Part shown: positions 21,601 through 57,200 of the stretch, piece after piece
How the letters are laid out: the number at the start of each line of letters is the position of its first letter
Numbering within the stretch: position 1 is the first letter of the stretch
Assembly: GCA_014843695.1 (NCBI GenBank)
Contig: CM026403.1
Coordinates: forward strand, 41,940,572 to 42,004,571
Direction: 5' to 3'
DNA: 64,000 bases
Source of the DNA: Archivesica marissinica
Lineage: Eukaryota > Mollusca > Bivalvia > Venerida > Vesicomyidae
The notes under the pieces: model-generated
Told to the model about the DNA's origin: nothing
Databases searched by the model: none
The model's input: the letters and a program-made list of their open reading frames with translations, nothing else
Made by a program: the position numbers and the translations under genes

Positions 21601-24600
21601 GTAAGGTGCCCGCTACTCATGTGGTCGCCAGATAGGACAGGTGGGGTTTCTCCGGGTACTCCAGTTTCCTCCCACACGAATGACCATATTTACGCTTTCA
21701 TCCGCGCCAACGAGAGTGCTTAATATAAGTTGTTAGAACTTGCTTAGCAATCGTTGTAAAATAAATAAAAGCTTAAACTTACTCATGTGACGTCACATGA
21801 TTGCCTTATATGGCATGTATTGCTACTGGTATAAATGTATTCCGTATATTATGGCATGTATTGCTACTGGTATAAATTGATGAGGCGAAATTTACATCGT
21901 CACCAGTCATTGGTATCACCGCGTAAATAAAAGTTGGACGCCAGTGTTGTTGCTTTCACTTTGTTATTACTTTATAACTGATAGTGCATACAATAAAATA
22001 AATATAATGTTTAATTGAGAAATACAAATATGTTATTGCTTATGTCATCGGTTACCGGTATACATGTACCCAGGATATCATTTAACCCATTTCATTCTGG
22101 ATAAATTTAAAGGCTTTTGCAAACAACATAGATCCAGATCAGCCGCAGCGTGACGCTGCATGCTGATCAGGATCTATGTTGTTTGCTGCATAGCCAAGTG
22201 TCTTAGCAAGATCATCTGAATAGCAAACAGCATAGATCTATGTTGTTTGCAAAAGCCTTTAAATTTATCCAGAATGAAATGGGTTAAGGATGCAATCGCG
22301 TGCTATCAAACTTCTCCCAAACATTTTTACCTCAATTATAATGAATCAATTGCAACTAACCTACCATTATTCCAACCGATTTCAATTGTATAAACTTCAC
22401 AATATATGTTATATTTCGGGTTTTACGCCTGCACCATTTTTGGGCTATATCGCCGGCGGGCAGTTTACCTAACAACACCTTTCCTGGGCAGGCTCCAGCG
22501 GTTAACCAGTACTTGGTGCACCAACCTCCGTAAGAAACTGCCAACTTTTTCATATAAATGAAACACGGTCTGAGCGGGGCTCGAACCCGTGACCATCAGT
22601 GATGATAGGTTACAGTGGTATACAAGTCAGCGACCTTAACCACTCGACCACGGAGGCGGAAAACTTCACAATAAAATACAAGTTTGTTGATTGGGTTTGA
22701 AAAGATGGTACATCTTTACGGAGTCAATTGTAATCTGGTTCTCAGTACCTTTTCTCGCCTCTCATTTATTCGTTCCATCTGTGCCTCACATTTCATAGCA
22801 GCCTGTTCATATTGTTCCAAATTACCTTGGAAACAAAACAAGGAAGATACATCAACATCTTATACAATATATTTACATCGCTACTGCATCTCATACAATA
22901 TATTTACATCACTATTGCATCTCATACAATATATTTACCGGTACATCGCTACTGCATCTCATACAATATATTTACATCGCTATTGCACACACGGTAATCA
23001 CGCCCAATGTAGTTCATACTCCGATGGAAACTATTAACACGCGATTCATTCCTTAAAACAAGGCCACTGCCCAAAGGGAGTTTCAACACCGGTTCATGTT
23101 CATTTTTTGTCAAGTTCAAGGTCACTGGTAAGTGGATAGTTTCTTTAGAACACAGTAAATATTTCTCAAAACCACACCATTATCGCAACAATTGAAGTTC
23201 AAGGTCACTAATGAGGGGTGTGGCTTGCTAGGGGTGGAGGAGGCCCAGTTACAACTAGAAACAGTATACAACTTATAAAACATTAATGATGTTTGTTAAG
23301 ACCTGTCACTGCCACTAGAAAACTGGTTGCTATGTGTCGCTTTCAACTCAGTTAAAATACAACATACACAGTTTTTTTATACTTTATTTATTTTACAACG
23401 ATTGCGAAGCAAGTTTTAACAACTTATATTAATCACTCTCGTTGGCTCGGATGAAAGCATATATGTGGTCATTCATGTGGGAGGAAACCGGAGTACCCGG
23501 AGAAAACCCACCTGTCCGATCTGGCGACCATAGTACCATCTCACATACTTCCCTGTCCGAGGATCGAACCTGGGTCGCATTGGTGAGAAGCGCGCGCGCT
23601 AACCACTGCACTAATCGGACATACACAGTTGTAATTAGGTAAAACCTATGATGTATTCCGCTCTGTTTGTATGCACAATTCAGGTGGCCGAGTGGGGCTT
23701 ATAATTACAATAATGTCAAATTTTTCAATTTATTTGACTCAGTATGGTATAACCGTCACTGCTTTACACATCGGATATTAAATCTTAAATCGTCTTGCAC
23801 AAACATATCCAAATATATTTGTTTCTTGTTGTTAAATTCGTACCAACCATTTACGTCATATTGTGACTCTCAAGCTGTTAATGGTGGAGGACAACCCATG
23901 TAGAACCACCGACCGTCTCCCAGCCAGCTGGATAGCATCAACACTTGACACCCTCAATGGGAACCAACAGCGATGAGGGGCAAGTGATTTGAAGCCAACA
24001 ACCGAAACAACTTTCCCACGGAGGTTCTCAAAACCAAATAAAATTGCAGAAGTATTTTGTGCTTGTATTCAATGGCTACTGTCATACAGCAGCCTTCCAT
24101 CCTATTGTGGTGAATGCAGGCACGGGATCCTCCAAGCATGGCGCATATCTGGGTAGAACCATACACCCTCTGCATGCCAATTGATGGCAGACTACCTTGC
24201 AACACCCCCCCCCGATTGACCTTTCATTGTATGGAAGTGGCAGACTACCTTGCAACACCCCCCCCCGATTGACCTTTCATTGCATGGAAGTGGCAGACTA
24301 CCTTGCAACACACCCCCCCGATTGACCTTTCATTGTATGGAAGTGGCAGACTACCTTGCAACACCCCCCCCCCGATTGACCTTTCATTGTATGGAAGTGG
24401 CAGACTACCTTGCAACACCCCCCCCGATTGACCTTTCATTGTATGGAAGTGGCAGACTACCTTGCAACACCCCCCCTGATTGACCTTTCATTGTATGGAA
24501 GTGGCAGACTACCTTGCAACACACCCCCCGATTGACCTTTCATTGTATGGAAGTGGCAGACTACCTTGCAACACCCCCCCCGATTGACCTTTCATTGCAT

Positions 24601-27600
24601 AGAAGTGGCAGACTACCTTGCAATACACCCCCTGATTGACCTTTCATTGCATGGAAGTGGCAGACTACCTTGCAACAATCCCCATGATTGACCTTTCATT
24701 GCATGGAAGTGGCAGACTACCTTGCAACACACCCCCTGATTAACCTTTCATTGCATGGAAGTGGCAGACTACCTTGCAACACCCCCCTGATTGACCTTTC
24801 ATTGCATGGAAGTGGCAGACTACCTTGCAATACACCCCTGATTGACCTTTCAGTGCATGGAAGTGGCAGACTACCTTGCAACACACCCCGCGATTGACCT
24901 TTCATTGCATGGAAGTGGCAGACTACCTTGCAACACCCCCCCTGATTGACCTTTCATTGCATGGAAGTGGCAGACTACCTTGCAACACACCCCGCGATTG
25001 ACCTTTCATTGCATGGAAGTGGCAGACTACCTTGCAACACTCCCCCCGATTGACCTTTCATTGTATGGAAGTGGCAGACTACCTTGCAACACACCCCCTG
25101 ATTGACCTTTCATTGTATGGAAGTGGCAGACTACCTTGCAACACACCCCCTGATTGACCTTTCATTGCATGGAAGTGGCAGACTACCTTGCAACACACCC
25201 CCTGATTGACCTTTCATTGTATGGAAGTGGCAGACTACCTTGCAATACCCCCCCCCCGATTGACCTTTCATTGTATGGAAGTGGCAGACTACCTTGCAAC
25301 ACACCCCCTGATTGACCTTTCATTGTATGGAAGTGGCAGACTACCTTGCAATACACCCCCTGATTGACCTTTCATTGCATGGAAGTGGCAGACTACCTTG
25401 CAACACCCCCCCCGATTGACCTTTCATTGCATGGAAGTGGCAGACTACCTTGCAACACCCCCCCCCGATTGACCTTTCATTGTATGGAAGTGGCAGACTA
25501 CCTTGCAATACACCCCCTGATTGACCTTTCATTGTATGGAAGTGGCAGACTACCTTGCAACACCCCCCCCCCCGATTGACCTTTCATTGTATGGAAGTGG
25601 CAGACTACCTTGCAACACCCCCCCCCCGATTGACCTTTCATTGTATGGAAGTGGCAGACTACCTTGCAACACCCCCCCCGATTGACCTTTCATTGTATGG
25701 AAGTGGCAGACTACCTTGCAACACACCCCCTGATTGACCTTTCATTGTATGGAAGTGGCAGACTACCTTGCAACACCCCCCCCCCCCGATTGACCTTTCA
25801 TTGTATGGAAGTGGCAGACTACCTTGCAACACACCCCCTGATTGACCTTTCATTGCATGGAAGTGGCAGACTACCTTGCAACACACCCCCTGATTGACCT
25901 TTCATTGCATGGAAGTGGCAGACTACCTTGCAATACACCCCCTGATTGACCTTTCATTGCATGGAAGTGGCAGACTACCTTGCAATACACCCCCTGATTG
26001 ACCTTTCATTGTATGGAAGTGGCAGACTACCTTGCAACACACCCCCGATTGACCTTTCATTGTATGGAAGTGGCAGACTACCTTGCAACACACCCCCTGA
26101 TTGACCTTTCATTGCATGGAAGTGGCAGACTACCTTGCAATACACCCCCTGATTGACCTTTCATTGCATGGAAGTGGCAGACTACCTTGCAACACCCCCT
26201 GATTGACCTTTCATTGTATGGAAGTGGCAGACTACCTTGCAACACACCCCTGATTGACCTTTCATTGTATGGAAGTGGCAGACTACCTTGCAACACACCC
26301 CCTGATTGACCTTTCATTGCATGGAAGTGGCAGACTACCTTGCAACACACCCCATGATTGACCTTTCATTGCATGGAAGTGGCAGACTACCTTGCAACAC
26401 ACCCCATGATTGACCTTTCATTGCATAGAAGTGGCAGACTACCTTGCAATACACCCCCCTGATTGACCTTTCATTGCATGGAAGTGGCAGACTACCTTGC
26501 AACAATCCCCATGATTGACCTTTCATTGCATGGAAGTGGCAGACTACCTTGCAACACACCCCCTGATTAACCTTTCATTGCATGGAAGTGGCAGACTACC
26601 TTGCAACACCCCCCTGATTGACCTTTCATTGCATGGAAGTGGCAGACTACCTTGCAATACACCCCCTGATTGACCTTTCAGTGCATGGAAGTGGCAGACT
26701 ACCTTGCAACAATCCCCATGATTGACCTTTCATTGCAAGGAAGTGGCAGACTACCTTGCAACACACCCCCTGATTGACCTTTCATTGCATGGAAGTGGCA
26801 GACTACCTTGCAACACACCCCCTGATTGACCTTTCATTGCATGGAAGTGGCAGACTACCTTGCAACACCCCCTGATTGACCTTTCATTGCATGGAAGTGG
26901 CAGACTACCTTGCAACACACCCCATGATTGACCTTTCATTGCATGGAAGTGGCAGACTACCTTGCAATACACCCCCTGATTGACCTTTCATTGCATGGAA
27001 GTGGCAGACTACCTTGCAACACACCCCCTGATTGACCTTTCATTGCATGGAAGTGGCAGACTACCTTGCAGACACACCCCCTGATTGACCTTTCATTGCA
27101 TGGAAGTGGCAGACTACCTTGCAGACACACACCCTGATTGACCTTTCATTGCATGGAAGTGGCAGACTACCTTGCAGACACCCCCCCTGATTGACCTTTC
27201 ATTGTATGGAAGTGGCAGACACACCCCCTGATTGACCTTTCATTGCATGGAAGTTAAATATTCAGTTGATCCCATACCTTCCAGTCTCTCAAAGTTAATG
27301 AACGCATCTACAATGGATTCTGGCCAGTCTGCAACAGAGTTTAATGCTCTTTGTAGAACTTTACGACAGTGCTTGTTGTCTCCATAGTTCCTGAAATATT
27401 ATGCCACAAGTTTTAATGAAAGCATCTACAATAGATTCTGGCCAGTCTGCAGCAGAGTTTAATGCTCGTGTAGAACTTTTCATTAGCCAATGCAAAGCAC
27501 AAGACAAGAAAAACTACCCTTACCACTATCAGTCCCCTACCAGGTATTTGCTTATACACAATATTATAGAGCTTTGAAACCGTGGCGTGACACTTGAGTG

Positions 27601-36600: not shown

Positions 36601-39600
36601 CATTCTATTGTTTACCGATTGTCCTCGCCGTGTTTTTCGCAAGCTGTGAAAATGGCACTTTGAACTACGTATAATTGGTGGGTAGTTGACATTAGCAGCA
36701 CATCCATCTAAGTGTACATGTATAAGAATAGAACTATCTTTACAGGGGAAACTTAAACTGATCAATGAGCCGGAGACTTTGCCAAAGCCAACATTAAATT
36801 GTGCTTAAATAAGACTTCTTTTATGACGTTACAATAACTTAGCCGAAATGAAAGTTGACATTAATTTCTCTTTGGTATGCTTTCTGGCACTCACTGAGAA
36901 GTACATGCACAGTCCATGACAACATGCACAGTCCATGACAACATGCACAGTCCATGACAACATGTACAGTCCATGACAATATGTACAATCCATGACAACA
37001 TGCACAGTCCATGACAACGTGCACAGTTCATGACAACATGCACAGTCCATGACAACATGCACAGTTCATGACAACATGCACAGTCCATGACAACATGCAC
37101 AGTTCATGACAACATGCACAGTCCATGACAACATGCACAGTTCATGACAACATGTACAGTACATGACAACATGTAGTGGAATGATACAGACAGAGACACA
37201 TTCCAGAATTTCCCCTGGTTCTTTTAAGTGCACGGTGTAAAGCACCTACATGAGGCCTCAGTTTAAAGTCCCATTTGAAAGACTGCTAATTTTATTATGG
37301 TCAGACAGGGGATCGAACCTAAAATATATTTGCAAACAATAGAGCCAGGCGGAAAATAACTTTTTTGACCGTTTGGTGTGAGTGAAGGATTTACATTGCT
37401 GTATGCAAGATTACAATGAGACCGTTTCATGCTTCAGGGCTGGTGTTCTGGACACTACGACTGTCTACTTACTATCCAACTGTTCTATTGCTGTCTCCAG
37501 GGACAGTCGGAATGTTTGCAGTTCTTCTGAGTGATCTGGAATGATATAATTCCGAGCACTTAAAACAATTTCCAGCTTCCAAAAGAACAATGCAAGAATT
37601 AATAGACTGAATAACAGATTCTGAAAACACATAGATCACTTCATACGACTCTTCAATTGAACAACAAATTCATGATGATTTTGTGAATAAATACCTGTAA
37701 AGGGAGATAACTTATAAATTATATTTTCACAAAACCAAATTAGATTTGTAGGCATATTTTCAAAATTTTACTTAAAATCCGATTAAACTTTTATTGAAAA
37801 CAGAAATATATGATTGTAACACAATTTGTAATCATCCTATTTCTTAGAATGTCTCGGATCAGTCAAACCTGTCTATAAAGGCCACCCACTGGAAAGACAA
37901 AAAGTGGCCTTTGTTGGCAGGTGGCCTCTCAATAGAGGGTTAAAATGCATTGAAAATGGCTCAACGGGAGAGAAAAATGGTGGTCTTTAGAGACAGGTTA
38001 TTCATATTCAGCCTTTATTCGGAGGTGGCCTTTAGCACAGGTTTAGTTTAAACAATATTTTATTTCAATGAATATACATAGTATAATGGTCACAATAAGA
38101 AAAATACATGTAGGATTGAGGAGAAAGCAACTTGCTTATATGGTTACCTCTTTCCTTTAGCACAGGTTTGACTGTAATTGCATATTGAGGCTTTAACCCA
38201 TTCAACACCAAGTAACTGACATGGACTGGTCCATGATATTTTTAGACAAATAAATTAATAACAAAATTACATTTGGATCAGTTCATTTATCAAAATGGGT
38301 AATTTTTTATCTAAAAATAGTTATATTACTTGAAAAAAGTGCAGATCCTGATGAGACGGCTCGGTCACGAGCCGGCTCATCTGGATCTACACTTTTTTGT
38401 AAGCCAATTTAGAGGTATGTGGTTTGAAAGGGTTAACAGATCTGAATTTGGTAATTACCTGCATCCCACTTGATTCGTCTTCTTAAATAGTCTACAAACG
38501 TTGTCCACAGTGATAACACCTGTGATCCTTGTGAGAAACCAGAGGATAAAGCTGCCTCAAACACACCTGAAGTATTCACAAGCAAATTCGATTGTTGTTA
38601 CAGACGCTACACCATCATAAACATTGGAGGCATTCACAAATTAAACAGTAGATTAAAAACAGCCTTCAGATCATAGAAATTCGGTTTGGAGGAATTAATG
38701 CTGTGACAATTCCAGAAATGAATCCAATACACTTCCCAGAACTGAATCCAGTAACCTTTCCAGAACTGAATCCAGTAACCTTCCCAGAACTGAATCCAGT
38801 AACCTTCCCAGAATTGACCAGCCTACCCTTCACCCTGACTCTGTTATATACTAAGTGACTATGACCAGCCTACCCTTCACCCTGACTGTTATATACTAAG
38901 TGTCTATGACCAGCCTACCCTTCACCCTGACTGTTATACACTAAGTGTCTATGACCAGCCTACCCTTCACCCTGACTCTGTTATATACTAAGTGACTATG
39001 ACCAGCCTACCCTTCACCCTGACTGTTATACACTAAGTGACTATGACCAGCTTACCCTTCACCCTGACTATGTTATACACTAAGTGACTATGACCAGCTT
39101 ACCCTTCACCCTGACTCTGTTATATACTAAGTGACTATGACCAGCCTACCCTTCACCCTGACTGTTATACACTAAGTGACTATGACCAGCCTACCCTTCA
39201 CCCTGACTTATACACTAAGTGACTATGACCAGCTACCCTTCACCCTGACTGTTATACACTAAGTGACTATGACCAGCTTACCCTTCACCCTGACTCTGTT
39301 ATATACTAAGTGACTATGACCAGCCTACCCTTCACCCTGACTGTTATACACTAAGTGTCTATGACCAGCCTACCCTTCACCTCGACTGTTATACACTAAG
39401 TGTCTATGACCAGCTTACCCTTCACCCTGACTCTGTTATATACTAAGTGACTATGACCAGCCTACCCTTCACCCTGACTCTGTTATATACTAAGTGACTA
39501 TGACCAGCTTACCCTTCACCCTGACTCTGTTATATACTAAGTGACTATGACCAGCTTACCCTTCACCCTGACTCTGTTATATACTAAGTGACTATGACAA

Positions 39601-42600
39601 GCCTACCCTTCACCCTGACTGTAATACACTAAGTGACTATGACCAGCTTACCCTTCCCCCTGACTGTTATATACTAAGTGACTATGACCAGCTTACCCTT
39701 CACCCTGACTCTGTTATATACTAAGTGACTATGACCAGCTTACCCTTCACCCTGACTCTGTTATACACTAAGTGACTATGACCAGCCTACCCTTCACCCT
39801 GACTCTGTTATACACTAAGTGACTATGACCAGCCTACCCTTCACCCTGACTGTTATACACTAAGTGTCTATGACCAGCCTACCCTTCACCCCGACTGTTA
39901 TACACTAAGTGTCTATGACCAGCTTACCCTACACCCTGACTCTGTTATACACTAAGTGACTATGACCAGCCTACCCTTCACCCTGACTGTTATACACTAA
40001 GTGACTATGACCAGCTTACCCGTCACCCTGACTGTTATACACTAAGTGACTATGACCAGCCTACCCTTCACCCTGACTCTGTTATACACTAAGTGTCTAT
40101 GACCAGCCTACCCTTCACCCTGACTGTTATACACTAAGTGTCTATGACCAGCTTACCCTTCACCCTGACTCTGTTATACACTAAGTGTCTATGACCAGCC
40201 TACCCTTCACCCTGACTTATACACTAAGTGACTGTGACCAGCTTACCCTTCACACTGACTCTGTTATATACTAAGTGACTATGACCAGCCTACCCTTCAC
40301 CCTGACTCTGTTATACACTAAGTGACTATGACCAGCCTACCCTTCACCCTGACTGTTATATACTAAGTGACTATGACCAGCCTACCCTTCACCCTGACTC
40401 TGTTATACACTAAGTGACTATGACCAGCTTACCCTTCACCCTGACTCTGTTATATACTAAGTGACTATGACCAGCCTACCCTTCACCCTGACTCTGTTAT
40501 ATACTAAGTGACTATGACCAGCCTACCCTTCACCCTGACTCTGTTATACACTAAGTGACTATGACCAGCCTACCCTTCACCCTGACTCTGTTATACACTA
40601 AGTGACTATGACCAGCTTACCCTTCACCCTGACTCTGTTATATACTAAGTGACTATGACCAGCCTACCCTTCACCCTGACTCTGTTATATACTAAGTGAC
40701 TATGACCAGCCTACCCTTCACCCTGACTGTTATACACTAAGTGACTATGACCAGCCTACCCTTCACCCTGACTGTTATACACTAAGTGACTATGACCAGC
40801 TTACCCTTCACCCTGACTCTGTTATACACTAAGTGACTATGACCAGCCTACCCTTCACCCTGACTGTTATACACCAAGTGTCTATGACCAGCTTACCCTT
40901 CACCCTGACTCTGTTATATACCAAGTGACTATGACCAGCCTACCCTTCACCCTGACTCTGTTATACACTAAGTGTCTATGACCAGCCTACCCTTCACCCT
41001 GACTCTGTTATATACTAAGTGACTATGACCAGCCTACCCTTCACCCTGACTGTTATACACTAAGTGACTATGACCAGCCTACCCTTCACCCTGACTCTGT
41101 TATATACTAAGTGACTATGACCAGCTTACCCTTCACCCTGACTGTTATATACTAAGTGACTATGACCAGCCTACCCTTCACCCTGACTGTTATACACTAA
41201 GTGACTATGACCAGCTTACCCTTCCCCCTGACTGTTATATACTAAGTGACTATGACCAGCTTACCCTTCCCCCTGCTGTTATACACTAAGTGACTATGAC
41301 CAGCCTACCCTTCACCCTGACTTATACACTAAGTGACTATGACCAGCCTACCCTTCACCCTGACTCTGTTATATACTAAGTGACTATGACCAGCTTACCC
41401 TTCACCCTGACTCTGTTATATACTAAGTGACTATGACCAGCCTACCCTTCACCCTGACTGTTATACACTAAGTGACTATGACCAGCCTACCCTTCACCCT
41501 GACTCTGTTATACACTAAGTGACTATGACCAGCTTACCCTTCACCCTGACTCTGTTATATACTAAGTGACTATGACCAGCTTACCCTTCACCCTGACTCT
41601 GTTATACACTAAGTGACTATGACCAGCTACCCTTCACCCTGCTCTGTTATATACTAAGTGACTATGACCAGCCTACCCTTCACCCTGACTCTGTTATACA
41701 CTAAGTGACTATGACCAGCCTACCCTTCACCCTGACTCTGTTATATACTAAGTGACTATGACCAGCTTACCCTTCACCTGACTCTGTTATCTAAGTGACT
41801 ATGACCAGCTACCCTTCACCCTGACTGTTATACACTAAGTGACTATGACCAGCCTACCCTTCACCCGACTGTTATACACTAAGTGACTATGACCCTACCC
41901 TTCACCCTGACTCTGTTATACTAAGTGACTATGACCAGCTACCCTCACCCTGACTTTATAACAAGTGCTATGACCAGCTACCCTCACCCTGACTTAACAA
42001 GTGACTATGACCAGCTACCCTTCACCCTGACTCTGTTATAACTAAGTCTATGACCAGCTACCCTTCACCCTGACTGTTATACACTAAGTGACTATGACCA
42101 GCCTACCCTTCACCCTGACTGTTATACACTAAGTGACTATGACCAGCCTACCCTTCACCCTGACTCTGTTATATACTAAGTGACTATGACCAGCTTACCC
42201 TTCACCCTGACTCTGTTATATACTAAGTGACTATGACCAGCCTACCCGTCACCCTGACTGTAATACACTAAGTGACTATGACCAGCTTACCCTTCCCCCT
42301 GACTCTGTTATATACTAAGTGACTATGACCAGCCTACCCTTCACCCTGACTGTTATACACTAAGTGTCTATGACCAGCCTACCCTTCACCTCGACTGTTA
42401 TACACTAAGTGTCTATGACCAGCTTACCCTTCACCCTGACTCTGTTATATACTAAGTGACTATGACCAGCCTACCCTTCACCCTGACTCTGTTATATACT
42501 AAGTGACTATGACCAGCTTACCCTTCACCCTGACTCTGTTATATACTAAGTGACTATGACCAGCTTACCCTTCACCCTGACTCTGTTATATACTAAGTGA

Positions 42601-45600
42601 CTATGACAAGCCTACCCTTCACCCTGACTGTAATACACTAAGTGACTATGACCAGCTTACCCTTCCCCCTGACTGTTATATACTAAGTGACTATGACCAG
42701 CTTACCCTTCACCCTGACTCTGTTATATACTAAGTGACTATGACCAGCTTACCCTTCACCCTGACTCTGTTATACACTAAGTGACTATGACCAGCCTACC
42801 CTTCACCCTGACTCTGTTATACACTAAGTGACTATGACCAGCCTACCCTTCACCCTGACTGTTATACACTAAGTGTCTATGACCAGCCTACCCTTCACCC
42901 CGACTGTTATACACTAAGTGTCTATGACCAGCTTACCCTACACCCTGACTCTGTTATACACTAAGTGACTATGACCAGCCTACCCTTCACCCTGACTGTT
43001 ATACACTAAGTGACTATGACCAGCTTACCCGTCACCCTGACTGTTATACACTAAGTGACTATGACCAGCCTACCCTTCACCCTGACTCTGTTATACACTA
43101 AGTGTCTATGACCAGCCTACCCTTCACCCTGACTGTTATACACTAAGTGTCTATGACCAGCTTACCCTTCACCCTGACTCTGTTATACACTAAGTGTCTA
43201 TGACCAGCCTACCCTTCACCCTGACTTATACACTAAGTGACTGTGACCAGCTTACCCTTCACACTGACTCTGTTATATACTAAGTGACTATGACCAGCCT
43301 ACCCTTCACCCTGACTCTGTTATACACTAAGTGACTATGACCAGCCTACCCTTCACCCTGACTGTTATATACTAAGTGACTATGACCAGCCTACCCTTCA
43401 CCCTGACTCTGTTATACACTAAGTGACTATGACCAGCTTACCCTTCACCCTGACTCTGTTATATACTAAGTGACTATGACCAGCCTACCCTTCACCCTGA
43501 CTCTGTTATATACTAAGTGACTATGACCAGCCTACCCTTCACCCTGACTCTGTTATACACTAAGTGACTATGACCAGCCTACCCTTCACCCTGACTCTGT
43601 TATACACTAAGTGACTATGACCAGCCTACCCTTCACCCTGACTCTGTTATATACTAAGTGACTATGACCAGCCTACCCTTCACCCTGACTCTGTTATACA
43701 CTAAGTGACTATGACCAGCCTACCCTTCACCCTGACTGTTATACACTAAGTGTCTATGACCAGCCTACCCTTCACCCCGACTGTTATACACTAAGTGTCT
43801 ATGACCAGCTTACCCTTCACCCTGACTCTGTTATACACTAAGTGACTATGACCAGCCTACCCTTCACCCTGACTGTTATACACCAAGTGTCTATGACCAG
43901 CTTACCCTTCACCCTGACTCTGTTATATACCAAGTGACTATGACCAGCCTACCCTTCACCCTGACTCTGTTATACACTAAGTGTCTATGACCAGCCTACC
44001 CTTCACCCTGACTCTGTTATATACTAAGTGACTATGACCAGCCTACCCTTCACCCTGACTGTTATACACTAAGTGACTATGACCAGCCTACCCTTCACCC
44101 TGACTCTGTTATATACTAAGTGACTATGACCAGCTTACCCTTCACCCTGACTCTGTTATATACTAAGTGACTATGACCAGCCTACCCGTCACCCTGACTG
44201 TAATACACTAAGTGACTATGACCAGCTTACCCTTCCCCCTGACTCTGTTATATACTAAGTGACTATGACCAGCTTACCCTTCCCCCTGACTGTTATACAC
44301 TAAGTGACTATGACCAGCCTACCCTTCACCCTGACTGTTATACACTAAGTGACTATGACCAGCCTACCCTTCACCCTGACTCTGTTATATACTAAGTGAC
44401 TATGACCAGCTTACCCTTCACCCTGACTCTGTTATATACTAAGTGACTATGACCAGCCTACCCGTCACCCTGACTGTAATACACTAAGTGACTATGACCA
44501 GCTTACCCTTCCCCCTGACTCTGTTATATACTAAGTGACTATGACCAGCTTACCCTTCACCCTGACTCTGTTATATACTAAGTGACTATGACCAGCTTAC
44601 CCTTCACCCTGACTCTGTTATACACTAAGTGACTATGACCAGCTTACCCTTCACCCTGACTCTGTTATATACTAAGTTACTATGACCAGCCTACCCTTCA
44701 CCCTGACTCTGTTATACACTAAGTGACTATGACCAGCCTACCCTTCACCCTGACTGTTATACACTAAGTGACTATGACCAGCCTACCCTTCACCCTGACT
44801 CTGTTATACACTAAGTGACTATGACCAGCTTACCCTTCACCCTGACTCTGTTATACACTAAGTGACTATGACCAGCCTACCCTTCACCCTGACTGTTATA
44901 CACTAAGTGACTATGACCAGCTTACCCTTCACCCTGACTCTGTTATACACTAAGTGTCTATGACCAGCCTACCCTTCACCCTGACTGTTATACACTAAGT
45001 GTCTATGACCAGCTTACCCTTCACCCTGACTCTGTTATACACTAAGTGTCTATGACCAGCCTACCCTTCACCCTGACTTATACACTAAGTGACTGTGACC
45101 AGCTTACCCTTCACACTGACTCTGTTATATACTAAGTGACTATGACCAGCCTACCCTTCACCCTGACTCTGTTATACACTAAGTGACTATGACCAGCCTA
45201 CCCTTCACCCTGACTGTTATATACTAAGTGACTATGACCAGCCTACCCTTCACCCTGACTCTGTTATACACTAAGTGACTATGACCAGCTTACCCTTCAC
45301 CCTGACTCTGTTATATACTAAGTGACTATGACCAGCCTACCCTTCACCCTGACTCTGTTATATACTAAGTGACTATGACCAGCCTACCCTTCACCCTGAC
45401 TCTGTTATACACTAAGTGACTATGACCAGCCTACCCTTCACCCTGACTCTGTTATACACTAAGTGACTATGACCAGCTTACCCTTCACCCTGACTCTGTT
45501 ATATACTAAGTGACTATGACCAGCCTACCCTTCACCCTGACTCTGTTATATACTAAGTGACTATGACCAGCCTACCCTTCACCCTGACTCTGTTATACAC

Positions 45601-48196
45601 TAAGTGACTATGACCAGCCTACCCTTCACCCTGACTGTTATACACTAAGTGACTATGACCAGCCTACCCTTCACCCTGACTCCATTATACACTAAGTGAC
45701 TATGACCAGCCTACCCTTCACCCTGACTGTTATACACTAAGTGACTATGACCAGCCTACCCTTCACCCTGACTGTTATACACTAAGTGACTATGACCAGC
45801 TTACCCTTCACCCGGCTGTATGCCTGGCCTGCTCTCTCTAAACTGAGCATGTAGTTTTGCCAGAGTTGTACACACCATGGACAGTTCCGGACACATCTCT
45901 CGTAAACATCCATACTGATACTAGGCACCCGTAATGTGTGATCCTGCAATTCATTATAGTTGTTAATGTTAACACTACAAAACTAAACAAATGTCAATCA
46001 CACAGTATTTAATGATGTTTTAATGGCTTGCATTGAGACAAAGGACTGGATCAGTGGTCCAGTGGTATACATGCTGGACAACAAATCCAGGGGGTCACAG
46101 GTTTGATCCCCCGTCCCATCGCGGTGCGAACGTGCATGCGTGTTTTACGTTTATTTATCGTTGTTACCAGTTGCCCATATGAGCCACGCCTCCTGAAGAG
46201 ATTAGTCATTTTAGATTTTTGGAGGATAGTGCAATGATACAGACAGAGACCCATTCCAGTCTCCTCTGGTTCTTTTACGTGCACAGCACCAGAGATAATT
46301 TCCTGGTATAAATGTTCTATAAAACAGACATTACTGTAGCCACTAGATTTAATTGAGATAATTTCCTGGTACAAATGTTCTATAAAACAGACATTACTGG
46401 AGCCACTAGATTTAATTGAGATAATTTTCTGGTACAAATGTTCTATAAAACAGACATTACTGGAGCCACTAGATTTAACCGAGATACCTTTCTGGTACAA
46501 ATGTTCAACAAACCAGATATTTAGTGTACTGTAGCCACAAGGTGGAGTCGAGACAATTGTCCTGTATTCCTCTTTCATACAAACACTGTATTCTGGCCGG
46601 GTCGCCGTCCTTCTGCTCGTACCTGATATATTCCTGGTACTGTTCAAGTCGTGGAGCCGCTGCTGCAGTCTATAAATACATTGAAAGACTGCCTCAGAAC
46701 ACTGTCACTTTGAATGTGCTGCACAATTATCTCGGGATATTCTCAGGAGCAGATGACTAGACACAAGTACCATCTTATTTTTCAACAATCTATTCAGATC
46801 TTAAGTATAATTTTGAATATATAGATATACAGTCAAACCTCTCTAGAGCAAACACCATCCGGATACATCGAGATTGGTTGTTGTAGAGAGGTTGTTGTTC
46901 TAGGGAGGTTCAACTTTTTGAAGTCTGGAAATGCGCGAATAGTCAGTTTATAGTCGGTGGCTCATACTGAATTGAATATAGAGTATACAGAATGGGGTCC
47001 TATGTACAATTGTACTTTCGGTAAATATTCAAAAACATTCTAAAACTGACTCAAAGCATTGAAAATTCAACTTCTTTTTAATACATATAACTATACAGTA
47101 TACATATATCAGTCTGAAACTAAACACAGATTTTTTGTTTGCTTAAAAAAGTCACTGATTTTACTCTGAGGTCCAGCTGAGGACACAATGTGTTTAAAAT
47201 CCCCCAGATTATGCAAATCTAGACAATTGTGTACATATAACGATTTATGTTTTCAATAGATCAAAGTCAAAACATCTGATAAATTACGCATTTCAATTGT
47301 ATAAAAAACAAACAACATAAAACATAGATCTGTCGCATCACGGCAATTATCACTTCCATGATAAATTTCATATTGTATATATATATATTCAAACACATAA
47401 CTGTTAGGAAACCAGACGTATACATAGTGTGATTCTATTGTTAGCTATTTTTAGAATTGGGAAATACAGTGGAACCTCTCTAAACCGGACATCTTCGGGA
47501 CTGGATAAAAAGTTCGGTTTACAGAGGTTTCCGGTTTTCAGAGGTTTTTTATTGATGTGTTTTCAAAACTGCATAATTTATAACCTTTGTAAAGTACATA
47601 TGTCTTTTTATAGTTTATACTGTATTATTGCAAATACAAATGTACAATATATCAGAGTATGGAATGGACCATATGATGAACACAGTTTATGTTACACAAA
47701 TATCTCTTTATTTTACAAACAACTATAAGTGTTTTACTTGTGTACATGTATCTCTATAGAAAATAAACATAAAAACTGCAGTGAATGTTCCTTGTTCAGT
47801 TATGTACATGTACATGTATTAGTCTTTCTTAAAGAAAGACTCGAGAGTAGTTTGACTCTTCTCGTAACATCTTGCTCTAACTATCTTGTTCTTGGTCATA
47901 TATATCATGTCCTGAATCTTCTCTAAGTAATCAACATCAACACTTATAGCAAAGTTTTTGAATTGCTCCAGCATGTTGCGCACATCACTGTGGTTCATTT
48001 CACTGCCTGGTAAGGGTGTGTCAACTTCCTCCCCATCACTGTCTGCAGTAGGCTCTCCCGATTGCTCCTTGTACGTTTCCACTAGGTTTTGCTCCCAGTC
48101 TGTGGAAGTGTCCTCTGTTGGGATATCCACCTCCATTTGGTCAATGTCTTCCATAGTGAATTGGAATTCACTGATGAGATCTGCTAAAGGCACATT

Positions 48197-48249
<53 letters not shown>

Positions 48250-51200
48250 AGTTAGTGATGTTAGCACTTTCAGCATCACGGAATCCAACAGACCCAAAGC
48301 ACTTGACTACCGTTTCAACTTTAACTTTGTCCCACGCTTTCACCGTCCAACCAATTGCATCAAGCAGTGTCACCTCCTTACAGAGTTCCTGAGCAGAACT
48401 GTCCATTTTACTTAACAAGCATCTTAACATGAACTTTCTGTAGTAAGCTTTAAACGCACGAATAATTCCTTGATCTAATGGCTGAAGGTGGGAAGTGGTG
48501 TTTGCCGGAAGGAACTTAATTAGCACATGTGATAGACTGTAATCATCTTCCTTTCCGTGAGAGGAAGCATTATCCAGCATAAGGAGAATCTTCCTGCCCT
48601 GTCTGCGCATGTCAGAGTTAAGTTCCGTAATCCATTCCGAGAATACTTTATTGTTCATCCACGCTTTCTTGTTGGCCACATATTTCACTTTCAAATCTGA
48701 TTTTTTCACATTTTTGAAACATCGTGGATTTTGTGCTTTGCCTATCACCAGAGGCTTAAGCTTTTCACCTCTTACACTGCACGTAAACATCACCATTACT
48801 CAGTCTTTGGACACCTTAGCCCCTTTGGTCAAAGTCCCTTTAGCTGCTAGAGTCTTATCTGGTAGGGCTCTGAAATACAGACCAGTCTCATCACAATTGA
48901 AAACATTATCAAGTGAGTACTCAAATCTCCAAGAACTCCGGGATTCTAGACTTAAATCCTTTCAGTAGATCCTGATTGACACCAGCACTTTCACCTGACA
49001 CTTTAAATTCCTTGACAGAATGACGGTCCTTCCATTTCTCCAGCCACCCATTAGATGCCTTAAAACCACTGAATCCTAATTCATGTGCAAAGTGAAGAGC
49101 CTTCTCCTGGATAATTGGACCTGACACAGGAATATTCTTAGCCCGAACTGAACGGAACCAGTCCCACACTAATTCATTTAACCGTTCAAACTTGGGTTTC
49201 ATTGCCGAATCTCAATTTCTCAGGGGTGGCATTCTTTTCCCAATGACCTTTGTAGACGTCCTTCTTTTTAATGATGTCTCCAACTGTGGACTTTCCGACT
49301 CCGTATTTCTCGGCGGCCAGAACCTAAAATGCAAAATAATGAACATTAATTTTGATGTTCATTATTTTGATAAGAATTGATAAAATTCAGAATTAAACAC
49401 ATTACATAAGTACACCGATGCCGATTTCCATAAAATGTCATAAATTGCAACAAAAATCTCGAGAAATTTAGTAGAAAATCTCACCTTAATTGTTGGTTTT
49501 GGTCTAGCTTCCGATTGCCTAATTAGGTTAATTTTATCCTCAAGGGACAGCACAATTCTTCTACGTTTAGACGGCGGTTGTGACATGATTGAAACAAATA
49601 TAAAGTGATGAAATATTTTTGAAAAACAGTTCTTTAAATATTATTTTGTAAAACAAATGGTCAAAAGTTGCGAAAATCATAATTATCTTGTGTGACTGGA
49701 TTATATTGTGCTTTCACAGGTGATCAAACGGTTGCATCAAACAATAAATTACGAGGTTCACAAAATCCATTATTCGTTATCAAACAAAGTTTTATAATTG
49801 CCTATAATCTACACGTGATTATAACATAATCCCCCAGTTAGCCGACAAATTAACTGTACACGAGTGTTAATTGCAGTAGTCATCAATCAGCCTGACATCT
49901 TATAATCTTGCGCGATTATCACACGTTCATAGATCAAACACGCACCGTTAAAAACGAGATTGGAAAGTGTCAGCAGCGTGTCATTTTATGACGGAATACA
50001 CAAACAAATTCAACACGTTTTAGTTTATTGATGAAGACCTATGTCGCCTAAAAGTTGTTCCAGTTTTGGGAGGTGAAATTACATCAATCTGTACCCAAAT
50101 TATGCAAATTTTTCGTCCGGTTTCCGGAGTTGAGAGGTTCCGGTATTCAGAGTGATTTTATGTAAGAAATAAAGAAGAAACAATTCGGGACTTTCAAAAA
50201 CGTCCGGTTTTGGGAGTATTCCGATTTAGAGAGGGTCCGGTCTTGGGAGGTTCCACTGTACAGGTAAAAGATATTTTGGGATTATTGTCTGTTCTTGGGA
50301 GGTTTTATGCATCGATGGGTGGGAAATTGACTGTCGTTGTGCGTTGTTGAGAGGTGTCGTTCGTGAGAGGTGAAATTACATTAAAATCCAACAGGAGGGA
50401 ATAAAAGTGACGTTATACGACCTTCTTGACTGATCCATGCTAATTGTAAATATATACAGTGGAACCCCTCTAAAGCGGAATTCCCTCCAAACGCAACGAT
50501 TTTCCCGGTATATATATATACAGTGGAACCCCTCTAAAGCGGAATTCCCTCCAAACGCAACGATTTTCCCGGTCAAAATATTTTCCCTAATTTGTATAAA
50601 CTAATACACTACCAGTCTGTTGACGGCATTCAATTATGGTGATGGGCGTTTGAAGCTTATTGACAATTCAGTGCCTCGGGTAAAACATCTGTCTCGGATT
50701 AATGTATGGCTTTGGATTATCGAACAATATGGGCAATTAGCATGGATCAGTCAAGAAGGTCGTATATCGTCTGATTTTATTAGTTAATTGGATAATTAAC
50801 AGTCATCGTAAACTTCACAGCAGTGCCGTAGACATTCAAATATTGATAGTGTCAAAAGTTATATTTTTTTAAAGCACTTGCCCTACTGGGCTGCCAGCAG
50901 GAAACCTTTGCTTGTCTGGCAGTCATTAGCACTTGTCCCGGGCAGCCGGGTCATAGATTTGACTGTGCCGATGTATACATATATTATTGTATCTGAAATT
51001 TGTTAAAAACTTCATCCCCTCCGATATAAACCCCTCCAAATGGAACTTCTCTGGTTCGGAGGTGGATCGGTTTAGAGGAGTTTCACTGTATATGTTATAT
51101 AAGGAACTGCTCCTTGTGAAATTACCATTTGGAAATGACCTCACTTATGGACAATTCTTTTCAATATTTACCAGTTTCTCGTCATAAGGTTGAATTTCTA

Positions 51201-54200
51201 CTATTTGGATCAAAGCTGTTTGATCATATGCCTGCTTTGTCTACTTGTACGAAATATTTACCAGTTTCTCTTCGTATGGTTTTACCTTCTCCAGTTTGAT
51301 CAGAGCCTTATTGTACGCCTGCTTTGTCTACTTGTACGAGACATTTACCAGTTTCTCTTCGTATGGTTTTACTTTCTCCAGTTTGATCAATGCCTTATTG
51401 TACGCCTGCTTTGTCTACTTGTATGAAATATTTACCAGTTTCTCTTCGTATGGTTTTACTTTCTCCAGTTTGATCAGAGCCTTATTGTACGCCTGCTTTG
51501 TCTACTTGTATGAAATATTTACCAGTTTCTCTTCGTATGGTTTTACTTTCTCCACTTTGATCAGAGATTAATTGTATGCCTGCTTTGTCTACTTGTACGA
51601 AATATTTACCAGTTTCTCTTCGTATGGTTTTACTTTCTCCAGTTTGATCAGAGCCTTATTGTACGCCTGCTTTGTCTACTTGTACGAGACATTTACCAGT
51701 TTCTCTTTGTATGGTTTTACTTTCTCCAGTTTGATCAGAGCCTTATTGTATGCCTGCTTTGTATACTTGTACGAGATATTTACCAGTTTCTCTTCGTATG
51801 GTTTTACTTTCTCCAGTTTGATCAGAGCCTTATTGTACGCCTGCTTTGTATACTTGTACGAGATATTTACCAGTTTCTCTTCATATGGTTTTACTTTCCC
51901 CAGTTTGATCAGAGCCTTATTGTACGCCTGCTTTGTCTACTTGTACGAGATATTTACCAGTTTCTCTTCGTATGGTTTTACCTTCTCCAGTTTGATCAGA
52001 GCCTTATTGTATGCCTGCTTTGTCTACTTGTACGAGATATTTACCATTTTCTCTTCATATGGTTTTACTTTCTCCAGTTTGATCAGAGCCTTATTGTACG
52101 CCTGCTTTGTGTACTTGTACAAAATATTTACAAGTTTCTCTTCGTATGGTTTTACCTTCTCCAGTTTGATCAGAGCCTTATTGTACGCCTGCTTTGTCTA
52201 CTTGTACGAGATATTTACCAGTTTCTCTTCGTATGGTTTTACTTTCTCCAGTTTGATCAGAGCCTTATTGTACGCCTGCTTTGTATACTTGTCTGGTTCA
52301 TCCTGTAGCCAATCCTTATATTCGTCAAAAGTCTCTTCCAAGCCTGGAACATATATCCTGGATATGTAATATTAATCTAGAATTGTGACACAGATGCCCC
52401 TGCTGGGTTTTCAACATCCATTCAAACCACTCTTCCATTTAAGAAAATGACCGTAACCTTGAACCTAAGTGTTTCATGTGACCACACTAACCTTGAACCT
52501 CTAAGTGTTTCATGTGACCACACTAACCTTGAACCTCTAAGTGTTTCATGTGACCACACTAACCTTGAACCTAAGTGTTTCATGTGACCACGCTAACCTT
52601 GAACCTAAGTGTTTCATGTGACCACACTAACCTTGAACCTAAGTGTTTCATGTGACCACACTAACCTTGAACCTAAGTGTTTCATGTGACCACACTAACC
52701 TTGAACCTAAGTGTTTCATGTGACCACACTAACCTTGAATCTAAGTGTTTCATGTGACCACGCTAACCTTGAACCTAAGTGTTTCATGTGACCACACTAA
52801 CCTTGAACCTAAGTGTTTCATGTGACCACACTAACCTTGAACCTAAGTGTTTCATGTGACCACACTAACCTTGAACCTAAGTGTTTCATGTGACCACACT
52901 AACCTTGAACCTAAGTGTTTCATGTGACCACGCTAACTAACTTTGAACCTAAGTGTTTCATGTGACCACACTAACCTTGAACCTAAGTGTTTCATGTGAC
53001 CACACTAACCTTGAATCTAAGTGTTTCATGTGACTACGCTAACCTTGAACCTAAGTGTTTCATGTGACCACGCTAACTAACCTTGAACCTAAGTGTTTCA
53101 TGTGACCACACTAACCTTGAACCTAAGTGTTTCATGTGACCACGCTAACTAACCTTGAACCTAAGTGTCTCATGTGACCACGCTAACTAACCTTGAACCT
53201 AAGTGTTTCATGTGACCACACTAACCTTGAACCTAAGTGTTTCATGTGACCACACTAACCTTGAACCTAAGTGTTTCATGTGACCACACTAACCTTGAAC
53301 CTAAGTGTTTCATGTGACATGTGACCACACAAACCTTGAACCTAAGTGTTTCATGTGACCACACTAACCTTGAACCTAAGTGTTTCATCTGACCACACTA
53401 ACCTTGAACCTAAGTGTTTCATGTGACCATGCTAACCTTGAACCTAAGTGTTTCATGTGACCACACTAACCTTGAACCTAAGTGTTTCATGTGACATGTG
53501 ACCACACAAACCTTGAACCTAAGTGTTTCATCTGACCACACTAACCTTGAACCTAAGTGTTTCATGTGACCACGCTAACCTTGAACCTAAGTGTTTCATG
53601 TGACCACACTAAGCTTCAACCTAAGTGTTTCATGTGACCACGCTAACTAACCTTGAACCTAAGTGTTTCATGTGACCACACTAACCTTGAACCTAAGTGT
53701 CTCATGTGACCACGCTAACTAACCTTGAACCTAAGTGTTTCATGTGACCACGCTAACTAACCTTGAACCTAAGTGTTTCATGTGACCACACTAACCTTGA
53801 ACCTAAGTGTTTCATGTGACCACACTAACCTTGAACCTAAGTGTTTCATGTGACCACGCTAACCTTGAACCTAAGTGTTTCATGTGACCACACTAAGCTT
53901 CAACCTAAGTGTTTCATGTGACCACGCTAACTAACCTTGAACCTAAGTGTTTCATGTGACCACACTAACCTTGAACCTAAGTGTCTCATGTGACCACGCT
54001 AACTAACCTTGAACCTAAGTGTTTCATGTGACCACGCTAACTAACCTTGAACCTAAGTGTTTCATGTGACCACACTAACCTTGAACCTAAGTGTTTCATG
54101 TGACCACACTAACCTTGAACCTAAGTGTTTCATGTGACCACACTAACCTTGAACCTAAGTGTTTCATGTGACCACGCTAACCTTGAACCTAAGTGTTTTG

Positions 54201-57200
54201 TGTGACATGTGACCACACTAACCTTGAACCTAAGTGTTTTGTGTGACATGTGACCACGCTAACCTTGAACCTAAGTGTTTTGTGTGACATGTGACCACAC
54301 TAACCTTGAACCTAAGTAATTCATGTGACCACGCTAACCTCCAACCTAAGTGTTTCATGTGACCACGCTAACTTTGAACATAAGTGTTAAAGTGTGGAAG
54401 TCGTGATAGCGCAGTGGATGTGCGTTCGCTTCAGGTGCGAAAGGTCCGGAGTTTGAGCCCCGCTGGAGCTGTTACGATTGGTTTAAACATATTTATTCCA
54501 CTATATACATTCACAAAACAATACATGCACACAAAATCAAAGAATAGGAAAGGATCAAAACGGAAGCAGAACGTATATAGTTTCTCTCCTTGCAGTTCAA
54601 AATACACAGTACTATTTTGGACGGTGTGGAGCTAATATATGTATACCAAATGTGCATATTGCTTAGAAATGACAGGAATATAATACCAGTAAGAAAGCAG
54701 AAGAAAGAGAAGATATTTGAGAATGTAGCGCAGGCAGACAGGGGTAAAGTCATCAAGTGCACGTCTTATATACATGGGGTCTTATATGTATGGGGTTTCA
54801 CTCAAAGAATCGTTTTGTATCACAAATGAAGCTATGGACATATTCAAATATTATTTTGTTATGTCATCTGTCAGGTCTCCTCGCCATGTAGGATAGTATG
54901 CAGATTAGCAGTAGGGCATAACCTTAGCACATTGTGTAGGAAATCAATTCGAATATTAGAATAGTATGTACATTCAAAGAAAAAGTGGTAGCTGTTTTCG
55001 TTGGATCTACAGCGGCATAGTGGTGATTGAATTAGGTTTTTTAAAAAGAGATGCTCGTGGAGCCCACTTGACTTGGTTCTAATTTGTGTATGTAATACTT
55101 GTAGGTATCTATCACCATAATAGAAGAACGTCGGGAGTTTTTCTTTTATCTTTGTTTATATAGTTTTTAAAGGTGTTTAGAGTTGTGGCATTCCTAACGT
55201 TACTCTCTAGGTCATTCCATTCTCTTATTACGGATGGTAAAAATGAATTGTAGTATGAAGTTGTCCTGCAGTCAATTGATCGTATAGCGTCAGCATTTCG
55301 AAGATTATATCGACTAATTGAAGCAACAGTTGCAGGTACAAGATCAGATAAGTAATTTAAATTAGTTTATGTTTGTATCTACGGGTACTTAAAGGTTCCC
55401 AGTTAACTTCATTTTGTAGATCAATTAATGAAACTAGTTTAGATGCACCTGTTGCGATTCTGGCAGCCTCGTTTTGAATTTTTTCTATTTCATTTTTTAC
55501 GAATTCGGGACAATTATCCCATACAACATCTGAATATTCTAAAATAGGGCATATGAATGATGTATAAATTATCTCTAAGGATTTACGATCAAGTTTGTAT
55601 TTTAATTTCCGCATTATGTATATTCGTTTCCATGCCTTTTCCTTAATGTAAGTGAGGTGAGTATGCCAAGTACAATTTTTAGTTAAAAATAATCCCAAGT
55701 GCTTATGTGAACTAACCTCTAATATTGGGACGTTGTTCATTGTTAATGGTAAATATTGTCGTGCATGGCGAGCTCTGGAGAAAGTTATAATTTCTGATTT
55801 AGACGGATTGAATGTAATGCACCAGTTTGATGCCCATGTGGATATTGCCTGTATATCACTTTGAAGAATAACATCAGCTAAGTTAATATCTTGGACAATA
55901 ATATACAAAGATGTATCATCGGCAAATAGCCGTATATTGCTTTGAATTTCATTAACAATATCATTAATAAATATTAAGAATAATAGAGGGCCTAATATGG
56001 AACCCTGCGGTACTCCGGCACGCAAATATAGCCATTCAGAGGTAGCGCCTGGAAGTACAACACGTTGTCGCCTACTGCTTAGATAATCAGTAAACCAGTC
56101 ATGTAAATCACCTGTAATGCCAGCGGATTTCAGTTTTACAAGAAGACCACGGTACCACACCTTATCAAAAGCTTTACTTATATCTAAAAACACTGCTCGA
56201 ACGTCGAGGCCATCATCAAGAGCTTTACAAAAGGTATCATACAAGAAAGTCAACTGATTGACGGTGGAATCACCTGGAAGAAAACCAGATTGAAACTGGG
56301 TTAGAAAATTATTACTTGTAAGATTATTAAAAATATATTTGAAAACTATACGCCCGAAAACCTTTTCCATTGTGTTCAATAATGAAATAGGTCTGTAGTT
56401 AGATGGTAGTTTTGGATCACCGTTTTTAAATATCACCGATACATTCGCTTCCTTCCAACTACTGGGTAATTTGCACTGCCTTAAAGATAAATTAAAAATA
56501 TCACATAAAGGTTTCGAAAGCTCATAGCAGGCTTCTTTAAGTATTCTATTACTAAGTCCATCAGGACCAGATGCTGTTACGATTGTGCCCTTAGGCAAGG
56601 CATTTAAATTCCACGTTGCCTCTTCTCTCCCTCGTGGCGATGGATTCCATCAGGAATGAGATCTCGAGAGCGATTAATATAAGTTGTAAGAACTTGTTTC
56701 ACAATCAAGCTAAAATAAATTTGTATAAACTAAACATAAGTGTTTCGTGTGACATGCTATCATTTTATGGTGATCACCAGTGTCACTTATTTCAAAAATC
56801 TCTGAAATCTGAAAATGTTAAAGAGCGTATTTTGATGAGGACCTGTACTTACTTTCTAGATGGATGGTTAGTTGTATTTTGAAGAGTGTCTGTACATGTT
56901 ACTTACTTTGTAGAGGGACGGTGAGCTGTCTTTTGAAGAGTGCCGCTACCCGGTCATGTTGTTCACTGAATTTATTTTCCAGCTCTTTTGTTGGAACACA
57001 TCCTGGATCGGGCTGTAATACACAACAAAAGTAGCATCAAATATAATGTGTAAGCATCTATTACTAGATTTGAGAATTTATTTTTGTTTGTTTTTTGGGG
57101 CTACGGTTATATGGCGACTCTCCAGCTATTATTGGTGGAGGACAGAACCTCACACAGACCGCAAGCCAGTACTGCAGAACCTCACACAGACCGCAAGCCA

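Follow-up and report, generated by a model that had tools for sequence, protein, structure and literature searches.

Minisatellite-like arrays spanning the 5' splice junctions of consecutive SART3 exons in the clam Archivesica marissinica

The SART3 locus and its exons

The DNA analysed here is a 64,000-nucleotide (nt) stretch of the genome of the vesicomyid clam Archivesica marissinica (assembly GCA_014843695.1, contig CM026403.1, positions 41,940,572 to 42,004,571; hereafter the window). Its minus strand carries the SART3 gene, in which the 5' splice sites (donors) of three consecutive exons lie inside tandem arrays built from the end of the exon and the splice junction itself. The peptide read from exons e3 to e6 in a preliminary description of this DNA matched the solved structures of human SART3 (5jpz, E=2.8e-53), and the top-scoring relative of the window protein was the Mercenaria mercenaria SART3 model, with 75% identity over 86% of the query. 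Fifteen exons, e1 to e15, were placed by sequence and splice motifs, with a human SART3 sequence serving as the locator. The junctions counted throughout are 14 donors and 15 acceptors (3' splice sites); the least certain exon, e12, contributes its acceptor, and its donor is excluded from every donor count.

Joining e1 to e11 yields one uninterrupted reading frame, and an alignment of the window protein with those of Mercenaria, Mactra, Dreissena and Mizuhopecten shows no gap at the e3/e4, e4/e5 or e5/e6 join. The four remaining of the eight aligned bivalve or chiton SART3 models carry indels of one or two residues near a join, with continuity kept from e3 to e6. Reading through past the genuine donor leads to a stop after 2 codons for e2, 6 for e3, 2 for e4 and 7 for e5.

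Arrays at the donors of e3, e4 and e5

The donors of e3, e4 and e5 fall inside arrays detected by Tandem Repeats Finder (TRF), with units of 87, 63 and 43/47 bp, respectively, each unit combining the exon end with the 5' splice junction, and none of the 15 acceptors lies inside an array. The preliminary description had reported just this, three arrays straddling consecutive donors and none straddling an acceptor, and its account is borne out by TRF, by the Basic Local Alignment Search Tool (BLAST) and by the full set of junctions. The coordinates of the exons, arrays and degenerate copies are collected in Table 1.

Table 1. Positions in the window of SART3 exons e2 to e6 and of junction-related repeats; a slash marks the exon-intron boundary
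Feature	Positions	Strand	Description and basis
Exon e2	56907..57012	-	ends AAA/GTAAGT
Exon e3	52219..52343	-	125 nt; ends CTG/GTAAAT; frame continuity and homology
Exon e4	46514..46669	-	156 nt; ends CTG/GTTTGT
Exon e5	45805..45943	-	139 nt; ends AAGG/GTAAGC; phase with e6
Exon e6	38459..38566	-	neither junction inside an array
e3-donor array	51230..52292	-	87 bp period, 12.2 copies; TRF
Extra degenerate e3 register	51172	-	with donor motif
e4-donor array	46292..46521	-	63 bp, 3.7 copies; TRF and homology to e4 donor region
e5-donor array	38815..45813	-	43/47 bp unit; TRF periods 47/92/139, about 152 copies of 47
Degenerate second copy of e2 donor region	56846..56895	-	50 nt, 82%; BLAST; absent from TRF list
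Copy of exon e10 (exon positions 29-96)	27413..27479	-	68 nt, 93%; intron 9, upstream of e10 acceptor; BLAST

The three arrays preserve the splice signal to different degrees. Each e3 unit joins 73 nt from the end of the exon to 14 nt of intron 3, and the donor GT is kept in all 13 registers, each of which reads GTAAAT, at a spacing of 87 for 12 of them and 90 for one; predicted pairing with U1 small nuclear RNA is identical in 12 of the 13, the genuine register counted. At e4, where the best long match between array and donor region covers 113 nt at 76% (E=1e-17) with about 53 nt exonic, the junction GT is lost in all three copies, as read from the sequence itself. The exonic part common to the e5 array is small, about 9-15 nt of e5, the rest of the unit being intronic, and GNGTGAAGG/GT is retained at 133 sites, genuine donor included (86 GTAGGC, 41 GTAAGC, 5 GTAGCT and 1 GTAGGG). 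Pairing of these sites with U1, given here as an estimate of duplex energy with the 5' end of U1 rather than a trained splice-site score, has a predicted median of -8.6 kcal/mol, against -8.9 kcal/mol for the genuine donor.

The e5 array begins at the donor of its intron and accounts for 97% of intron 5 (6,990 nt out of 7,238), leaving about 250 nt outside. It also contains repeated internal blocks, with 1,385 pairs of identical 150-mers at an offset of 3,009 bp and further offsets of 4,861 and 1,852, pointing to block duplication inside the array or to an effect of assembly.

The array copies were also considered as alternative coding exons, and this candidate was rejected: the e3 unit of 87 keeps the frame, yet a stop follows after six codons. 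TAG stands at the read-through stop position in 8 of 11 e3 copies. Selection on the exonic part of the e3 copies was likewise not adopted, since of 15 distinct changes 8 fall at the third codon position, which is not significant (P=0.09). A search for structured RNA in 38000-57200 gave no Rfam match at gathering thresholds.

Self-similarity at the other junctions

At each of the junctions, the terminal 50 exonic nt were aligned with the adjoining 600 nt of intron, and the score was compared with those of 300 dinucleotide shuffles. The observed score exceeded those of all 300 shuffles at donors e2, e3 and e4 and at acceptor e10. At donor e5 the score was reached by 28 of 300, the self-alignment being weak because so little exon sequence is shared. 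Weak gapped matches at acceptors e2 (score reached by 1 of 300 shuffles) and e9 (by 16) were not treated as events, and at the remaining 22 junctions at least 61 of 300 shuffles scored as high. The signal at the e2 donor corresponds to the degenerate duplicate in Table 1, which the preliminary description had overlooked and which brings the affected donors to four in succession, e2 to e5.

BLAST matches that cross the junction, with at least 5 nt on each side, number 1 for e2, 12 for e3, 3 for e4 and 150 for e5. Within the window the e2-e5 probes have 169 non-self matches, every one of them local to the exon of its probe, and a dispersed element inserted at the donors was rejected as their source on this ground. 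The e4 probe has a single antisense match (38 nt, 74%, E=0.015), which is an imperfect inverted self-match of the e4 acceptor region. The local confinement of the junction matches, together with the block repeats inside the e5 array, is as expected for array turnover.

The copy of e10 was weighed as the acceptor-side counterpart of a junction-spanning minisatellite, or 'mirage', and rejected as such, since no recognisable acceptor stands beside it (308 of 500 shuffles reach its score). Either the duplication took place on the acceptor side and the decoy acceptor has since disappeared, or the copy is the product of a different event. Elsewhere, arrays lie 24 nt from the e10 donor, 31 nt from the e11 acceptor and 35 nt from the e13 acceptor. 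The first of these, a 52-bp array of about 58 copies at 24185-27254, begins downstream of the e10 donor and carries AAG/GTAGTC on the sense strand; possibly this is a former donor array whose exon part is gone.

Comparison with mirages and other known systems

Arrays that repeat an exon-intron boundary are known as mirages in amphioxus, where the original paper on the Adh mirage is reportedly that of Canestro and co-workers. As described in two reports, amphioxus mirages are minisatellite-like tandem duplications of exon-intron boundaries found in Adh3, troponin C, globins and PGBD5, located at both 5' and 3' boundaries, with normal splicing reported and with instability in length (PMC3087553, PMC3902484). 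According to the same reports, their units measure 10 to 160 bp and many contain the splice signal; the globin cases are BflGb6 and BflGb9, and BflGb6 haplotypes carry 3 and 6 units (PMC3087553, PMC3902484).

The clam arrays share with these the tandem repetition across an exon-intron boundary, met at the e3, e4 and e5 donors and in degenerate form at e2, as well as a unit that joins exon sequence to a splice signal, with the GT kept in the e3 and e5 copies and not in those of e4. What bears on splicing in the clam is the continuous frame and the continuity of the ortholog models, and the locus is represented by one sequence. The two systems differ in the host, here a bivalve, in the involvement of four consecutive donors of one gene, and in scale, as the e5 array runs to about 152 copies over 7 kb and fills its intron, whereas the BflGb6 haplotypes hold a handful of units. 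They differ also in position, since both boundaries are affected in amphioxus, whereas in the clam window only donors lie inside arrays. We consider it probable that the window arrays are mirages, junction-spanning minisatellites of a known kind that are non-functional and tolerated; they are not evidence of a new mechanism.

Other known systems are less close. A model in which introns are gained when exon sequence containing AGGT is duplicated in tandem, named in PMC4974935 with a potato RNA-dependent RNA polymerase (RdRp) case, resembles the clam arrays in that the tandem duplication spans a splice junction or lies close to one; the clam copies, however, appear to sit in existing introns rather than to form a new one. 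Ordinary intronic minisatellites, as represented by the other arrays of the window, have similar unit lengths and copy numbers, whereas the unit of the donor arrays includes coding sequence and a splice junction. In the earthworm metallothionein gene, intronic minisatellites and exon-4 duplications are described (PMC12783039). Among the matches listed in a literature search, judged from the openings of their abstracts, none was a report of junction-spanning minisatellites in a mollusc.

Origin of the arrays and alternative explanations

In a stretch rich in minisatellites, short tandem duplications would by chance take in the end of an exon together with the 5' splice site and thereby seed arrays, which would then expand inside the intron by unequal exchange or slippage. 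Provided that splicing uses the donor nearest the exon, exon length and protein would remain unchanged and the copies would leave with the intron, while use of a later donor, with its stop within seven codons for e2-e5, would yield a transcript that serves no purpose or is degraded. Copies of a donor lie downstream of the genuine site and would be transcribed after it, whereas copies of an acceptor lie upstream, would be met first and would be spliced into the mRNA. Since donor copies thus come after the genuine site and acceptor copies before it, donor-spanning arrays would be tolerated more often than acceptor-spanning ones, and such selective tolerance would predict a donor bias without any mechanism at the junction. 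We infer the duplication process, the choice of the first donor and the asymmetry in selection; the asymmetry is plausible and forms the weak part of the mirage reading.

The likeliest of the alternatives is coincidence, according to which the arrays are mirages in anatomy and are so dense that some land on junctions with neither bias nor selection. It overlaps with the reading as tolerated mirages in everything except the asymmetry step, and we regard it as possible, if rather doubtful. Density is high: 71 TRF rows, merged by hand with the complex at 16267-17273 split into four and a CAT run removed, give 38 arrays. Together they occupy 27,422 bases, or 43% of the window, and all but three (35 of the 38) cross no placed junction, which also suits the reading as tolerated mirages. 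Under a placement null, in which one unit per array is placed at random on the collapsed sequence, the 38 arrays are expected to hit 0.58 donors and 0.62 acceptors. Hits on at least three junctions of either kind are then unremarkable (P=0.12), and neither does the split between donors and acceptors depart from chance (3:0, P=0.125; 4:1, P=0.19), both of which favour coincidence. Hits on at least three donors are less readily accommodated (P=0.017), and a stricter set of 24 arrays with at least 3 copies and a unit of at least 20 bp gives lower values still, P=0.005 for at least three donors and P=0.048 for at least three junctions.

The donor excess also weighs against the reading as tolerated mirages, because four consecutive donors without an acceptor array amount to more donor bias than the simple null provides; on the same side stands the strength of the e5 sites, which offers no explanation for why the copies would be ignored.

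The preliminary description had suggested instead a mechanism acting at 5' splice junctions, such as R-loops or transcription-linked repair, or else selection. Under such a mechanism exon ends would seed arrays more often than other sequence does. The link to SART3 or U6 autoregulation that it had also raised, as pure speculation, found no evidence bearing on it. The clustering of donors beyond the null stands, and the run of four from e2 to e5 speaks in the same direction, random seeding giving three consecutive donors with P=0.0007 (P=0.0002 in the stricter set); these values are post hoc, for a pattern picked after being seen, and the degenerate e2 and e10 events lie outside the null. Donor specificity, on the other hand, is not significant, whether counted inside arrays (3 of 14 donors and 0 of 15 acceptors, Fisher P=0.10) or with e2 and e10 added (4 of 14 and 1 of 15, P=0.17). 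Nor is donor-like U1 pairing stronger on the sense strand than on the antisense strand, as a process favouring 5' splice sites in general would predict, judging from two mid-array units sampled per array (Wilcoxon P=0.55 for the 38 arrays, P=0.26 for the 35 that remain without the three). Amphioxus mirages, moreover, occur at both boundaries. A mutational mechanism specific to 5' splice junctions therefore finds no positive support here and appears improbable.

Still less probable is a regulatory role, in which decoy donors that pair with U1 would slow splicing, tune SART3 output by way of poison isoforms or keep long introns from being polyadenylated prematurely. The retention of GG/GT with strong predicted U1 pairing at all 133 e5 sites, the equal predicted pairing of nearly all e3 registers, and the stop that any later donor brings in within seven codons would suit such a role. 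However, the e4 copies have lost their GT, retention of GT in near-identical arrays needs no selection, and the arrays in general show no donor-like bias. An assembly artefact in the form of false repeat expansion, which the long exact repeats inside the e5 array (offset 3,009) might suggest, is highly improbable, as the array copies differ among themselves and three separate arrays and two degenerate duplications all fit the frame of the gene, even though the copy number in the assembly may be wrong where the arrays are real.

Three open frames in the window, at 47819-49640 (-), 8026-11723 (+) and 55357-56649 (-), resemble by eye a pogo/Tigger-type transposase and two reverse transcriptases of the long interspersed nuclear element (LINE) type.

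Repeats in SART3 models of other molluscs

Internal repeats were flagged in 6 of the 146 proteins scanned (P0001, P0020, P0026, P0042, P0057 and P0132). Read against the exons of the window, the Mytilus coruscus model (P0026) repeats the end of exon 11, the Nucella lapillus model (P0057) the start of exon 7, and the Mytilus edulis model (P0020) a region at the start of exon 14. These could be traces of exon-edge repeats at both edges, although as gene models rather than DNA they serve as leads only, and they possibly reflect gene predictors that read through similar arrays.

Two further observations concern the gene in this group. In the clam, exon e13 contains a coding minisatellite at 15957-16142 (-), with a 33-bp unit encoding PPPGFK(E/D)EKSA, and SART3 model P0028, from Mercenaria mercenaria, has a similar repeat. 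In Mya arenaria the gene appears split over the models P0013 and P0025, and the first of these appears to be without most of exon e5.

Implications

If the arrays are mirages, what has been an oddity of lancelets would extend to a mollusc, and at a much larger scale. Intron 5, which is nearly all array from its donor onward, illustrates a way in which introns could lengthen from the 5' end, and a pre-mRNA in which a single donor is repeated in about 130 close copies would constitute a natural experiment in splice-site choice. The locus also carries a warning for annotation, in that gene predictors may take array copies for coding sequence, as the Mytilus coruscus model suggests. On a broader and decidedly tentative view, which we hold to be unlikely, the exon ends of bivalves might be preferred or preferentially tolerated seeds of minisatellites, and donor-spanning arrays a general route of intron growth, one that leaves the splicing machinery with tens to hundreds of U1-binding sites per intron to ignore. 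Were this so, such genes would lend themselves to asking how the first 5' splice site is picked out when many others are nearly identical to it.

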